64,000 bases of DNA, from positions 62,001 to 126,000 of the forward strand of contig NZ_JAMXLV010000019.1 in NCBI RefSeq assembly GCF_024054535.1. Direction: 5' to 3'. This stretch comes from Thermococcus alcaliphilus (lineage in GTDB: Archaea > Methanobacteriota_B > Thermococci > Thermococcales > Thermococcaceae). Below are positions 1 through 7,469 of this stretch, one piece after another. Numbering within the stretch: the first letter of the stretch is position 1; the number at the start of each line of letters is the position of its first letter. Position numbers and translations under genes: made by a program. The notes below the pieces were generated by a model. The model made no database searches, was not told where the DNA came from, and saw only the letters and a list, made by a program, of their open reading frames with translations.

Positions 1-629
1 GGCTTGCATATTCGTTTTCCATGGTCAACCATTGCATGATTCACATATATCCATAGATCCGTGGGTATTAATTGTTTGAGGTATTCCTCGACTTTCTCCG
101 GTGAAACCTTCGGAGGAGCTAAGCCGAGCCTTTTGCTGATTCTGTTTACGTGGGTATCCACTGGAATCGTCTGCTTTCCAAACCCGTATGCTAAAACTAT
201 GTTTGCACATTTTCTCCCTATACCCGGGAGCTTCATTAGTTCTTCAATTTTATCTGGAACTTTACCACCATATTCTTCGAGAATTATTTGAGAAGCCCTT
301 ACTATCCATTCGCCTTTCGTTTTCCAGAGGCCAACACCGTTCTTCCTCAGAAACTCTTGCATCTCTTCAATGGGTGTGTTCGCTATTGTCTCGATGTTCT
401 TGTACTTTTTAAACAACTCCCTCCACACTTTGTAAGTCACTTCATCCCTCATCCTTTGGGAGATTATGCAGTGGATCAGCGTTTTGTAAGGATCCCCAAT
501 GAGGATTTTTTCTCTAGGATAGGTCTCTATGAGTTTTTTGACTATCTCTTGGGCACGTTTTTTCTTTTCCTCCCAGCTCTCGTTAAATGTAAATCCATCA
601 GACTTGGATGATTGTAAGTTTGTTTTCAT
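1..629 (-). CDS. nth: Endonuclease III (DNA glycosylase/AP lyase), 3' truncated by window edge
   Basis: Base-excision-repair enzyme that removes oxidised pyrimidines and cleaves at the abasic site. About 209 residues are visible; the end lies beyond base 1. The helix-hairpin-helix LMKLPGIGRKCANIVLAYGF carries the catalytic Lys, and VDTHVNRISKRLGL carries the catalytic Asp. ICK at the edge is the first Cys expected of the C-terminal 4Fe-4S loop, whose other three Cys are outside. I chose the ATG at 629 because GGTGG lies six bases before it; it overlaps the upstream gene by 32 bp, which suggests co-transcription. Family assignment is firm; only the C-terminus is unseen. Confidence 0.93.
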   Translation of the reverse strand, partial: MKTNLQSSKSDGFTFNESWEEKKKRAQEIVKKLIETYPREKILIGDPYKTLIHCIISQRMRDEVTYKVWRELFKKYKNIETIANTPIEEMQEFLRKNGVGLWKTKGEWIVRASQIILEEYGGKVPDKIEELMKLPGIGRKCANIVLAYGFGKQTIPVDTHVNRISKRLGLAPPKVSPEKVEEYLKQLIPTDLWIYVNHAMVDHGKRICK

Positions 630-1029
630 TATGAACCACCAATACGGTATTTTTTGCAACCCTAACTTCTTTAAGTTTCTCGAATTTCTGGTTAAAAATC
701 TTGTGCCCTCTTTGGTTTAAAATTAAAACCTCATCGTCAAAGACAACTGCAATAATGCTTTTTCCGAGAAGCAAATCTTTAATTTCCTTTTCAAATTCAA
801 GTGTTGTGGAGAATATCTCTTCTTTGCTTAGCTCTATTGCCGTTAAGTCAGTGACCTTAATGACTTCTGGCTCTGCATATATGACCTTGAACTTGAGAGG
901 CTTTCCCAGCAGGTCTATTTCCAGAACATCACCTTCTCTGACTTCTTTTCCCTTGAGCTTTGTTTTTATGACCTCAATGAAATCGGGAGTTAGAGGTGCC
1001 TCGAACAGGGGTTTTAATATGAGTTTCAC
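598..1029 (-). CDS. Small conserved protein resembling a CDC48 N-terminal domain
   Basis: 143 residues with no membrane segment or signal peptide. Residues of about 10-65 (APLTPDFIEVIKTKLKGKEV then EGDVLEIDLLGKPLKFKV) look like the second substrate/cofactor-binding subdomain of archaeal CDC48/VAT. In that subdomain a LxGxxVxEGDxI stretch precedes an F/LxV strand and a T.x.T.IEL segment (here VTDLTAIELS). No AAA+ module follows. The rest is beta-rich and unrecognised. The GTG at 1029 has GGTGGG four bases upstream; an in-frame GTG at 1038 is possible. It overlaps nth downstream. The CDC48-N likeness is my reading by eye and not a confirmed homology. Confidence 0.7.
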   Translation of the reverse strand: MKLILKPLFEAPLTPDFIEVIKTKLKGKEVREGDVLEIDLLGKPLKFKVIYAEPEVIKVTDLTAIELSKEEIFSTTLEFEKEIKDLLLGKSIIAVVFDDEVLILNQRGHKIFNQKFEKLKEVRVAKNTVLVVHNENKLTIIQV

Positions 1030-1087
1030 GATTCCCACCCCAGTAGTTGTACTTCGTGAACTAATTAAGGGTTTTTAGGGACAAAGT

Positions 1088-3340: not shown

Positions 3341-4576
3341 TTAGCTTTTTCCTATATCTTTAAATTTTTCATAGCTTATTTTAAGTGCCTCAACAAGAGG
3401 AAGTTTTTCTCCAGCAAAAAAGGCTAACATTGCTCCACCGCCCGTGCTTATATGGGAGATTCCCTTTATGTTGTACTTGTATATGCTTGCTATTGAATGT
3501 CCCCCACCAACAACTGAGAATGCCTCACTCTCTCCTATAGCCTTAAAGACCTCCACAGTACCCTTTGCAAACTCTTCTATCTCAAAGACTCCCATAGGAC
3601 CATTTGCAACTATTATAGCAGCCTCCTGAAGTATTTCTCGATACTTTTCTATTGTCCTACTTCCTATGTCCATGATCGGTCTCTCGTCAAAAATCCATTT
3701 TTTATCGCTCAACAAATCTACTTCGACTCTCTCACCTTTGTATTCAACTGCAAAGTCTATTGGAGTTCTTACGTAAGGATAAAATTCATTCAATATCTTT
3801 TCCGCCCAATCTATGAGTTTTATTAATCCTCTTTTCTCAAGAAAGCTTATGTTCGCATCCCCAAGATCGAACCCCTTTGCCAGAGTGAAGATTTGGCTGA
3901 CCAAACCGCCTGTTAAAATCAAGTCGGCTTTTCCGTTCCTCAAAACATTCTCTGCAACTCTAAGTGAGTCCTCAACTTTTGCTCCACCTAATACATAGAT
4001 TTTGGGTTTTTCCTCGCTTTCATATGCCTTATTCAATGCTTTTAGTTCTCTCTCCATTAAAAATCCGGGTATCATTGGTTTTAACCTTGCAAAACCAACT
4101 AAAGAGGGCTGTGATCGATGAGCTGCGGCGAATGCGTCTGTAACTACGTAATCTATCAGGGGGCTAAGCTTCCTAACGAAATACGTATTCTCACACTTTT
4201 CTATGGGTGCTTGTTTGGTTTCCTCTGCCGCAAATCTGAGGTTCTCCAACATAAGTATTTCACCGGGTTTTAAAGAGGCTATCGCTTCCCTTGCACATTT
4301 TCCGAAGACATCTTCCACATATTTTACTTCGATACCGAGCAGGGAGCTTAGTATTTCGGCATGCTGTTCCGTGGTTAGGTAGTCTTCTTCATAGGGCTTG
4401 CTCTGATGAGTTCCAACAACAACCTTTGCGTTGTGTTCGAGTAGGTACCTTACGGTGGGTAAAACAGCCCTAAATCGGGCATCACTGATTATCTTTCCAT
4501 TTTTGACGGGTGAATTTAAATCCGCCCTAAAAAAGACTGTTTTCTCGTGATAGTTAAATTCTGTCAGCTTAAACAT
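3341..4576 (-). CDS. pgk: Phosphoglycerate kinase
   Basis: Interconverts 1,3-bisphosphoglycerate plus ADP and 3-phosphoglycerate plus ATP. 411 residues, usual length. N-terminal substrate residues are in FFRADLNSPVKNGKI and the basic ARFRAV segment; C-terminal nucleotide-domain motifs are NGPMGVFE and VGGGHSIASI. In Thermococcales the ferredoxin-linked GAPOR bypasses PGK in glycolysis, so the gene serves mainly gluconeogenesis. That agrees with the glycolytic-motif-like site directly upstream of its TATA box. GGTGAG precedes the ATG by four bases. Single gene, convergent with the exporter operon and divergent from the large Mrr/PepSY gene. Confidence 0.97.
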   Translation of the reverse strand: MFKLTEFNYHEKTVFFRADLNSPVKNGKIISDARFRAVLPTVRYLLEHNAKVVVGTHQSKPYEEDYLTTEQHAEILSSLLGIEVKYVEDVFGKCAREAIASLKPGEILMLENLRFAAEETKQAPIEKCENTYFVRKLSPLIDYVVTDAFAAAHRSQPSLVGFARLKPMIPGFLMERELKALNKAYESEEKPKIYVLGGAKVEDSLRVAENVLRNGKADLILTGGLVSQIFTLAKGFDLGDANISFLEKRGLIKLIDWAEKILNEFYPYVRTPIDFAVEYKGERVEVDLLSDKKWIFDERPIMDIGSRTIEKYREILQEAAIIVANGPMGVFEIEEFAKGTVEVFKAIGESEAFSVVGGGHSIASIYKYNIKGISHISTGGGAMLAFFAGEKLPLVEALKISYEKFKDIGKS

Positions 4577-4618: not shown

Positions 4619-4641
4619 TATTTTAAACACCAATGGTGATA
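4619..4641 (-). promoter_or_regulatory. pgk promoter: TGM-like site abutting the TATA box
   Basis: Reading the minus strand, TATCAC-CATTG-GTGTTT (4641-4625) runs directly into TTTAAAATA (4627-4619), the TATA box of pgk. It matches the Thermococcales glycolytic motif TATCAC-N5-GTGATA in 10 of 12 defined positions. Placement upstream of the TATA box is the arrangement known for activation of gluconeogenic genes by the Tgr/TrmBL1 sugar regulator. Regulation of this gene is inferred from that. Confidence 0.6.
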
Positions 4642-4661
4642 GGCGTATTATGCAAAACTAA

Positions 4662-4669
4662 TTTATATG
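4662..4669 (+). promoter_or_regulatory. TATA box of the Mrr/PepSY-repeat gene
   Basis: TTTATATG in an A/T-rich context about 40 bases before the ATG at 4704 would place the transcription start near 4690, leaving a short leader with a GTGAT site. Confidence 0.5.
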
Positions 4670-4703: not shown

Positions 4704-6857
4704 ATGGGATGGACGTTGGAAATATTGAACTCTGCCTCTGATGAGGATATAATTCGTATCGTTCAACGACTCATTGAATCCTTGGGGTTTAAAGAAGCCG
4801 AGAGAATAAGAGCTGAAGAGTGGAAAATCGACTTCATAGCCTTACGTGAGGATCCAATATCTGGGCTTGAGAAGTATGCAATAAAGGTAAAAACAAAAGG
4901 GTTAGCATCTTCTAAGGAAGTTGAAGAATTTGCAGAGGCCATCATAAAAGCTAAAGCAGATAGAGGGATTTTTCTTTCTGTTAGTGGATTCACAAAAGAT
5001 GCAAAAGTGCTCCTGGGGAGAGAATACAAGGGGAAAATAATCCCTTGGGATGGAGAGAGGCTCGTTAAGGAATTAAATGACAGGGAAATTCCAGTACCCC
5101 ATGAGTTAGTTGAAAGGCTCAAAAGGGAACGGATGGAGAAAGAAGAAGAGGCCAAAAGAAGGGGCATGTTGAAGGTTATACGTTTGGATGCACCATTGTT
5201 ATACTCGTTTTCACCCAATAAAGTTCTTGAAATGGTCATGTCGCTTATGGAATCTCGGTATAAAATCAAACGAGAGGACATTTTCCTAGAAGAGCTGGTA
5301 GTTGAGCTTTCTACCGGCTATATAATTCTGTGGTCTGCTAAAAAAGACACAGAGGAGGTAAAAGACAAAGCAGTAATTTTGTCAAAGGAAGAAGTAATCC
5401 CTTTTGTAAGCAGAGACGTTGAATTGGAAAGAAAAGTATCAAGAGCCCTCTTGGAAAGCGAGTCTGCAATAAAAGCTAGTGAAGTTGAAATAACATCCCC
5501 CATTTCTCAAAATGAGGCGGTGATAGCTCTCAAATTAAAACTTGCAGATGAACTTGAGATTCCCCAAACGAATATCTATCTAAGTTCTAGAAGGAAGGTT
5601 TATGTCCCGAATAGAGCTCTATTGACACTCAAAGTGGGCATAAATTCTGCCAAGGCTGAAGTCGATCTTAAAACGAATGACATCAAAGTAGACATAACCC
5701 CTCTTCCAAAGGAAAAGCTCATTGAAATAGCCAGAGAAGAGTGCAAAAAATCTCTCGGAGAGAACTCAGAAGAAATTTCTGTAGAGGAAAAAGATTCCGT
5801 AGCTATTATAAGTGGACAAACTAAACGGTTTGTTTTTGGGATTGCTTTGCACGTCTACAGTGGTAGGATTATGAAAAGAAAGTCAAAAATGAAACGGGAG
5901 GCAATATTCTCTGAGATTGCCAAACTGTATCCTGATGGAGAAGTGATATTCTTTGATGAAAAAGAAAATAGAGCAATAGTAGACGTGATGACTCCAAAAG
6001 GAGTCGTGGTTCTTGAATTCAACTTGGAAAATGGGGAGCATAAAGTAATTGCAAACCTCCTTCATCCTTATCAGATTGCAAATTCTGCCAAGAACCTTAT
6101 TGAAAAGAATTTTGACATAAAGGGGCTTGAGCTTGTTGACTTCAAATTCTACGATGCAACCCATTTAGAGCTACTCCTTGAGAGTGTTGACGGGAAGATT
6201 AAGGTAAATGCCGATGGAAAAACGGGAGACATAATAGATTATTTCGTTGAGATAAGTCCTCAGAAAGCCAGAGAGATAATCCTCCAAAAATATAAGGGAT
6301 GGGAAATAAAGAAGCTGGAGAAAGAGAATGAAGTTTACAAGGCTGAGCTTGAGAATGACAAATCTATTCTAAGAATATCCCTTAGCAAAGATGGAAAAAT
6401 TTTGAACGAATTAGATAGACAGCTGAAAATTGAGGTGGTAAGGGAGATAGCGGAGAAATTCTTGGAAGAGAAAGGAATACCTGCAACCATAAAGGAGATA
6501 AAACTTAATGAGAACTGGAAAGTTAAATTTGTCGGAGAAGAAAGAGTGGGAGAGCTTCTGATAGGTAGAAGTTCTGGGGAAATACTAAAGAGCGACGTTT
6601 TCCTGACTGAGATAGTGATTGAGGAGAGCTACAAGAGGTATATACTGGAAAAGTTCAATGAAAAGAACCTCAATACGGAAAGGATAGTTGTTTACAAGGA
6701 AAAGGGATATGCAGTGATAAAACTAGTAGGCGATAAGTCGATTTACTATGCAAAGATAGATCTGAGAAGTGGCAAGATTTTGGAGGAAGACACGTTGCCC
6801 AAGAAAGGTTTGATGGCAAAGATAAAGAAAATCCAATTAGAGGCAAAATATAAATAA
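4704..6857 (+). CDS. Mrr-like nuclease fold joined to tandem PepSY-like repeats
   Basis: 717 residues, no signal peptide or membrane helix, so presumably cytosolic. Residues 1-140 resemble Mrr/PD-(D/E)xK enzymes: helix IVQRLIESLGFKEAE, acidic D43 in WKIDFIAL, then YAIKVKTKG (61-63 KVK), where the usual Glu/Gln of ExK/QxK is Lys, and WDGERLVKELN. From about 155 to the end an alpha-beta-beta-beta unit of 60-80 residues recurs. It is seen as AREIILQKYKGWEIKKLEKE, VREIAEKFLEEKGIPATIKE and YILEKFNEKNLNTERIVVYK, each followed by strands ending GxI, the PepSY pattern. I count seven or eight units. Catalytic activity is doubtful given the motif change. Function unknown; monocistronic, divergent from pgk. 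Confidence 0.75.
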   Translation: MGWTLEILNSASDEDIIRIVQRLIESLGFKEAERIRAEEWKIDFIALREDPISGLEKYAIKVKTKGLASSKEVEEFAEAIIKAKADRGIFLSVSGFTKDAKVLLGREYKGKIIPWDGERLVKELNDREIPVPHELVERLKRERMEKEEEAKRRGMLKVIRLDAPLLYSFSPNKVLEMVMSLMESRYKIKREDIFLEELVVELSTGYIILWSAKKDTEEVKDKAVILSKEEVIPFVSRDVELERKVSRALLESESAIKASEVEITSPISQNEAVIALKLKLADELEIPQTNIYLSSRRKVYVPNRALLTLKVGINSAKAEVDLKTNDIKVDITPLPKEKLIEIAREECKKSLGENSEEISVEEKDSVAIISGQTKRFVFGIALHVYSGRIMKRKSKMKREAIFSEIAKLYPDGEVIFFDEKENRAIVDVMTPKGVVVLEFNLENGEHKVIANLLHPYQIANSAKNLIEKNFDIKGLELVDFKFYDATHLELLLESVDGKIKVNADGKTGDIIDYFVEISPQKAREIILQKYKGWEIKKLEKENEVYKAELENDKSILRISLSKDGKILNELDRQLKIEVVREIAEKFLEEKGIPATIKEIKLNENWKVKFVGEERVGELLIGRSSGEILKSDVFLTEIVIEESYKRYILEKFNEKNLNTERIVVYKEKGYAVIKLVGDKSIYYAKIDLRSGKILEEDTLPKKGLMAKIKKIQLEAKYK

Positions 6858-7469
6858 TCAGGTCATCAAGAGGCTTTCAATTAATTTTATTGCCTCTACT
6901 ATTTTTGTTTCTGGTACTTCTTCCTCTGGCAGTTCAAGGTTTATTACGAGTCTCTCTTCTTGTGCTTCCTCATCTAACCCGTAAACCTCGAGCTCCTCTA
7001 CGTCTACGTCTTCAAAGAAGTTCTCGATCTCTGGCCCTATTACCTTCTTGTCATTTCCGTAAACTTCCACTCTAATAAGGTCATCTTTGGATGAAGCAAC
7101 AACTGCTATTTCGTAATCACCAATTCTTTTTGTGAACTTGATAAGGTTTCCATAACCTAAAACCTCTTCAGTAAACCCAAGCTTTTTCATAACTCCCCTT
7201 ATTCTCTCAATCTTTGCCTTCATCCTGTTTAGTATCTTATCTCTCAATTTATAACTCTCTTCGAGGGCTTTCTTTATGCCCTCACCAGCTTTTTCTACCT
7301 CACCTTCCCATATTCCGACTATCTTTATCCCAGAAGAAGTTGGTTTAAGCTCAATTTTTAGGTTCTCTATGTCAAAATCTTTTAAGTCTTCAATCTTAAG
7401 CTCGCTAAGGCTGAGTATCTCAAATTCGATTCTAACTAAATTGCCAAAAGCTTTCCCCTTAAATTTCAA
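6858..7469 (-). CDS. Conserved hypothetical protein, acidic C-terminus
   Basis: 203 residues, soluble. I do not recognise a family. Residues 1-60 are beta-rich (VRIEFEILSL, IELKPTSSGIKIVGIWEG), 60-100 are helical and basic (KIERIRGVMKKLG), and the C-terminal third is acidic (FFEDVDVEELEVYGLDEEAQ, INLELPEEEVPETKIVEAIK). The start is a TTG at 7469: GGTGATG lies five bases upstream, no ATG fits, and TTTTTAAA about 35 bases upstream is a plausible TATA box. Its stop abuts that of the convergent Mrr/PepSY gene. A coding assignment is well supported by codon pattern and signals, a function is not. Confidence 0.75.
   Translation of the reverse strand: MKFKGKAFGNLVRIEFEILSLSELKIEDLKDFDIENLKIELKPTSSGIKIVGIWEGEVEKAGEGIKKALEESYKLRDKILNRMKAKIERIRGVMKKLGFTEEVLGYGNLIKFTKRIGDYEIAVVASSKDDLIRVEVYGNDKKVIGPEIENFFEDVDVEELEVYGLDEEAQEERLVINLELPEEEVPETKIVEAIKLIESLLMT

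Follow-up and report, generated by a model that had tools for sequence, protein, structure and literature searches.

An Mrr-type nuclease domain, predicted to be inactive, is fused to PepSY-like repeats in a putatively cytosolic protein of the Thermococcaceae

PepSY domains are generally regarded as regulators that act outside the cytoplasm, and Mrr domains count as restriction enzymes. A single archaeal protein carrying domains of both kinds is encoded in a 64,000-nucleotide stretch of the Thermococcus alcaliphilus genome (the window, meaning the whole stretch of DNA analysed here), by a stop-free frame that starts with ATG (Table 1). It is the sole Mrr_cat match and the sole PepSY-like protein detected in this genome, a 366-aa lipoprotein-like ORF with a weak PepSY match having been set aside. 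Both modules would here be re-used inside the archaeal cell, neither of them in its textbook role. In agreement with a sequence-only reading of the locus, which knew of no system of this kind, searches of open-licence papers found no description of the Mrr-PepSY combination, an older account elsewhere being possible. Each module is already known; what seems new, as far as checked, is their fusion, the arm of several PepSY units in a putatively cytosolic protein and the loss of QxK throughout the family.

Table 1. Coordinates of the pseudonuclease-PepSY repeat gene and its parts (positions in the window; residues of the encoded protein)
Feature	Position	Strand	Basis
Pseudonuclease-PepSY repeat gene, whole, 717 aa	4704..6857	+	ORF; orthologues
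Putative TATA-like element AATTTATATG, candidate own promoter of the gene	4660..4669	+	similar T/A-rich element in most orthologues
Mrr-type PD-(D/E)xK-like domain, residues 1-126, predicted inactive	4704..5081	+	Mrr_cat 1.2e-14; model core topology
D43, single retained catalytic position	4830..4832	+	Asp 52/55, Glu 3/55 orthologues
R-x-D-P-x-x-G-x-E-K hairpin, residues 48-57	4845..4874	+	n=55 orthologues
K61-V62-K63 on QxK columns	4884..4892	+	61 = K/A/L/R/S, 63 = H/K
Charged helical linker, residues 127-155, lowest conservation in protein	5082..5168	+	model; conservation
Three degenerate repeat-like segments u1-u3, residues 156-333	5169..5702	+	secondary structure; weak profile links
PepSY-like unit u4 (334-397)	5703..5894	+	model; profile comparison; unit alignment
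PepSY-like unit u5 (398-454)	5895..6065	+	model; profile comparison; unit alignment
PepSY-like unit u6 (455-518)	6066..6257	+	model; unit alignment
PepSY-like unit u7 (519-575)	6258..6428	+	three-unit model; fold search
PepSY-like unit u8 (576-635)	6429..6608	+	three-unit model; fold search
PepSY-like unit u9 (636-700)	6609..6803	+	three-unit model; fold search
Basic C-terminal helix KGLMAKIKKIQLEAKYK, residues 701-717	6804..6854	+	conservation; recognisable in paralogue

The Mrr_cat family (PF04471) matched residues 11-122 of the window protein with 55 bits, against a Pfam cut-off of 21, and was also matched by 22 of 23 orthologues and by all 13 orthologous N-termini tested (best 6.5e-19); these 13 showed secondary similarity to NA-iREase1 as well (best 1.6e-9). 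In the AlphaFold model of the whole protein (mean pLDDT 89, pTM 0.50), a helix (13-26) is followed by three strands (30-34, 44-50 and 54-63), a helix (70-82), a strand (87-92), a helix (98-106) and a strand (112-116), residues 13-116 displaying the alpha-beta-beta-beta-alpha-beta order of the PD-(D/E)xK core that had been anticipated within residues 1-140. In the window protein the domain is not basic (net charge -2, pI 5.4). Neither the complete sequence nor the N domain by itself found a relative in sequence searches of the PDB, and an NCBIfam match to FabT was discarded at 21 bits against a cut-off of 200.

The active site was placed by alignment with canonical Mrr_cat proteins of related genomes (L130-L134 and others), three of which (L130-L132) carry the motifs SGDQGAD, SNDQGAD and SGDFGAD, followed by AVQAK, AVQVK and AIQVK. 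D43 coincides with their Asp, and the lysines K61 and K63 occupy the Gln and Lys columns of QxK, as expected from the earlier claim that the Glu/Gln of the ExK motif had been replaced. Among the 55 orthologues, position 61 is occupied by Lys (25), Ala (22), Leu (5), Arg (2) or Ser (1), and in none by Glu, Gln or Asp; at position 63, 40 sequences have His and the other 15 Lys. In all but two of the 55, the column of the helix-1 Glu (residue 17) is taken by a hydrophobic residue (Ile, Val, Ala, Leu or Met), and the SGDxG loop that precedes the Asp in Mrr-type proteins is absent. Three of the four catalytic positions have thus been lost or changed, and the domain is predicted to have lost its catalytic centre and to be an inactive nuclease. 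Pfam alone would label such genes 'restriction endonuclease', which is misleading because the catalytic residues are gone. Conservation is instead found in the hairpin that joins strands 2 and 3, whose R48, D50, P51, G54, E56 and K57 are invariant in the main clade formed by the 55 orthologues.

The domain might still cut nucleic acid through a remodelled metal site, in which D43 would act together with E33 or another acid and K/H63 as the base, the PepSY arm restraining it until needed. The pocket does not seem free to drift, since position 43 is Asp or Glu and position 63 Lys or His in every orthologue, E33 being Glu in 54 of the 55, and migrated catalytic residues are known among PD-(D/E)xK enzymes. 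Nonetheless, the hydrophobic replacement of the helix-1 Glu, the lack of any acid or Gln at position 61 and the missing loop argue against catalysis, as does a second, diverged clade of 11 sequences that has lost D43 and residues 63-65 and yet persists under purifying selection, making retained activity unlikely.

Some genes surrounding this paralogue were also recorded. In three genomes, a gene for a membrane protein starts 2-6 bp after it (L087:8511-9449 and like genes in L088 and L089); its product has hydrophobic N-terminal segments, matches no Pfam family over the cut-off and is likely an operon partner. Upstream, a lysophospholipase-like alpha/beta hydrolase gene is found in L075, L087 and L125, preceded in L075 and L087 by VapC-like and AbrB-like antitoxin genes, all of these being named by eye. 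Separately, the N-terminus of an archaeal HTH regulator (L071:5677-6729) resembles by eye a degraded PD-(D/E)xK domain, possibly a parallel case of re-use of a dead nuclease domain.

Beyond the linker, ~560 residues form nine helix-plus-sheet segments, three of them degenerate (156-333) and six clean (334 to ~700), of which the earlier count of 'seven or eight' repeats was a fair estimate. Their PepSY-like kind was likewise read correctly, but the clean units appear in the model as alpha-beta-beta-beta-beta (alpha-beta4) rather than as the alpha-beta3 units proposed. Profile comparison links u5 with u7, u7 with u8, and u4 with both u8 and u9 at 54-75% (better direction), while u3 and u1 are only weakly linked, so that a common origin of u1-u3 is suggested mainly by secondary structure. 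The remaining unit types share 6-24% identity with u4 of the window protein. The last 17 residues, forming the KGLMAKIKKIQLEAKYK helix, are the best conserved of the whole protein (3.45 bits, against 2.3-3.0 elsewhere).

Unlike Mrr_cat, which lies above its cut-off, the PepSY family (PF03413) scores 13.1 bits in the window protein and so falls short of its cut-off of 24. The PepSY identity becomes clear only when relatives and structure are considered. PF03413 matches 20 of 23 orthologues at E<=1 (best 7.8e-9), and one paralogue passes the cut-off with 25.6 bits. A profile built from the family's own units alone retrieved the PepSY protein 9vy3 from the PDB (2.2e-4), followed by the periplasmic proteins 3db7 (0.016) and 3due (0.023). 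When u7-u9 were modelled on their own (pLDDT 94.8, pTM 0.80), they shared a fold whose best Foldseek match in the PDB is 5boi, the PepSY region of YpeB (2.2e-4, probability 1.00), with 4exr and 4fr9 lower in the list, amid propeller peptidases. The global TM-score is low, 0.28 for 5boi, and the likeness is weaker than a rigid match, which we read as hinge differences between units. When the whole model was searched, beta-propeller peptidases were returned at TM ~0.08 and rmsd >30 A, a meaningless local match of four-stranded blades that was rejected. Altogether, the models support PepSY-like units with a YpeB-like fold.

The extracytoplasmic location typical of PepSY finds no counterpart in the sequence. 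The N-terminus is taken up by the Mrr domain, and neither a signal nor a transmembrane segment was detected by hydropathy, the 19-residue maximum being 1.29 with no N-terminal hydrophobic stretch. The protein is accordingly predicted to be cytosolic, as the sequence-only reading had it.

The family is restricted to Thermococcaceae. A profile search of the 115 genomes of the class, which are also the whole phylum-wide set, found it in 64, all of them among the 94 Thermococcaceae genomes (a tally from the search listings) and spread over five genera; the 21 genomes from other families hold no copy. When 85,000 species genomes were scanned, every record retrieved bore the name Thermococcus, Thermococcaceae, Thermococcales or Thermococci; as the scan relies on short conserved peptides, it could miss distant relatives. 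In four genera the gene occupies the same single-copy locus, between pgk and a gene for a 203-aa protein, and in two genomes of one genus (g2) it lies elsewhere. Genomes without it (G010, G017, G021 and G015) have pgk directly adjoining the 203-aa gene, while G082 retains a 28-codon remnant and G077 and G102 broken copies. Inheritance is mostly vertical, copies clustering by genus in the tree except for g2 and g3 and the paralogue forming one separate clade. Purifying selection is evident, with omega mostly about 0.1; close pairs give 0-0.25 for the N domain, 0.04-0.38 for u4-u9 and about 0.07-0.23 for the whole protein, and since omega is low in each part, both the dead domain and the units are kept. 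These sequence comparisons suggest an old, non-essential and repeatedly lost protein that is well guarded where present.

This pattern bears on whether the protein could be a defence effector or a sensor of invading DNA. Inactive REase domains occur in defence systems (PMC12839542, PMC10853773) and, within defence proteins, have been suggested to sense nucleic acids or nucleotides (PMC12839542), weak PADLOC matches were obtained (PDC-S02 2.3e-6), and the patchy presence with repeated loss would suit such a role. These PADLOC matches are, however, confined to the Mrr domain, no defence neighbours were seen beside the gene, and an immune effector is disfavoured because the gene occurs once per genome, at a housekeeping locus shared by four genera, has a mostly vertical tree and is absent from viral contigs and plasmids. 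Defence is hence quite unlikely, and of the roles put forward by the sequence-only reading the immune effector loses ground, DNA sensing and a scaffold staying as candidates.

The immediate neighbours do not supply a partner. A gap of 127 bp separates the gene from the divergently oriented pgk (3341-4576, minus strand). At its other end lies the convergent 203-aa gene (6858-7469, minus strand), the stop codon of which starts at the adjoining base, and both neighbours also occur in genomes without the pseudonuclease gene. As a partner, the 203-aa gene was rejected on co-occurrence, being found in 91 of the 94 Thermococcaceae genomes whether the pseudonuclease gene is present or absent; its product has no Pfam match and belongs to a core family that was found in no genome outside the Thermococcaceae. 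No constant peptidase neighbour was found among the orthologue loci, the single case being G013 (L065), where an M48 peptidase gene in the same orientation follows after 51 bp. Within the pgk promoter, at 4625-4641, lies the palindrome AAACACCAATGGTGATA (TATCAC-N5-GTGATA with two mismatches), which resembles the Thermococcales glycolytic motif; it keeps a distance of ~47 bp to the pgk start in most relatives, including those without the pseudonuclease gene, and the window holds 7 matches of this type against 1.7 expected. As it adjoins pgk also where the gene is missing, it was rejected as a regulator of the latter. Elsewhere in the window (598-1038, minus strand), a 146-aa protein combines a CDC48 domain-2-like part (1.2e-9) with DUF6849 (2.6e-18) and has no ATPase.

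Taking all this into account, we tentatively propose that the protein is a regulator or adaptor rather than a nuclease. The dead Mrr-type domain would be a docking or sensing head, either for nucleic acid or, through the invariant hairpin, for a protein; the six to nine PepSY-like units would be an arm that binds a cytosolic client enzyme and keeps it in check, by analogy with what PepSY pro-domains and YpeB do extracellularly; and the conserved basic C-terminal helix may provide a third contact. In the cited work, YpeB regulates its partner SleB (PMC6660665) and DbfQ, another PepSY protein, binds and regulates the sensor DbfS (PMC12714742), all these partners being extracytoplasmic. From archaea, PepSY has been described in connection with secreted proteases and with a DPANN gene cluster that probably inhibits proteases (PMC4158269, PMC6393860). 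Several observations speak against the proposal: the partners just named lie outside the cytoplasm, the flanking pgk and 203-aa genes are found in genomes without the pseudonuclease gene too, the N domain of the window protein is not basic, and the fold superpositions reach only low global TM-scores. A bolder version, decidedly unlikely at present, would make it the first intracellular PepSY regulator, the pseudonuclease sensing nucleic acid such as damaged or foreign DNA and the arm releasing or restraining a cytosolic peptidase or other enzyme; if true, proteolysis in these hyperthermophiles would be coupled to the condition of their DNA.

The arm could also be passive. As a scaffold or oligomerising fibre, the repeats would provide length, with the dead domain and the basic helix at the two ends binding partners or each other. 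Six regular units in series and the high conservation of both ends fit this possibility, as do the dimers or multimers reported for YpeB (PMC6660665), but no sign of an assembly was found and the strong divergence among units suggests separate binding surfaces instead of a uniform fibre, which leaves a scaffold possible but doubtful. Binding of lanthanides, uranium or iron has been described for certain PepSY proteins (PMC11845868; UipA, cited in PMC12714742), and the units might alternatively be metal sites of a cytosolic binding or storage protein; the alignment reveals no common acidic cluster across them and the Mrr domain would be left unexplained, so this reading is highly improbable. 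For the regulator or adaptor that we prefer, the partner question is directly testable through Thermococcus genetics and a stable protein.

Compared with known systems, the window family shares with Mrr_cat proteins (PF04471; L130-L134) the fold, D43, the FTK-A motif and the overall domain length, but differs from them in lacking QxK at position 61 and the helix-1 Glu, in often having His at 63 and in its fused PepSY-like repeats. NA-iREase1 (PF22722), the NACHT-associated inactive restriction endonuclease, belongs to the same superfamily and is the second-best Pfam match of the window protein, which nevertheless scores 20.7 against a cut-off of 27 bits and contains no NACHT or other NTPase domain according to Pfam. 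The PepSY_like/BLIP-like proteins (PF11396; 3db7, 3due and 4fr9) match the units by both unit profile and fold, although they are described as periplasmic and are short (127-141 residues). YpeB of Bacillus spores, whose PepSY-containing C-terminal domain (PDB 5boi) is the top fold match of u7-u9, shares the tandem PepSY arrangement; it is, however, a spore protein controlling SleB, whereas the units of the window protein are predicted to be cytosolic, are more numerous and are fused to a pseudonuclease.
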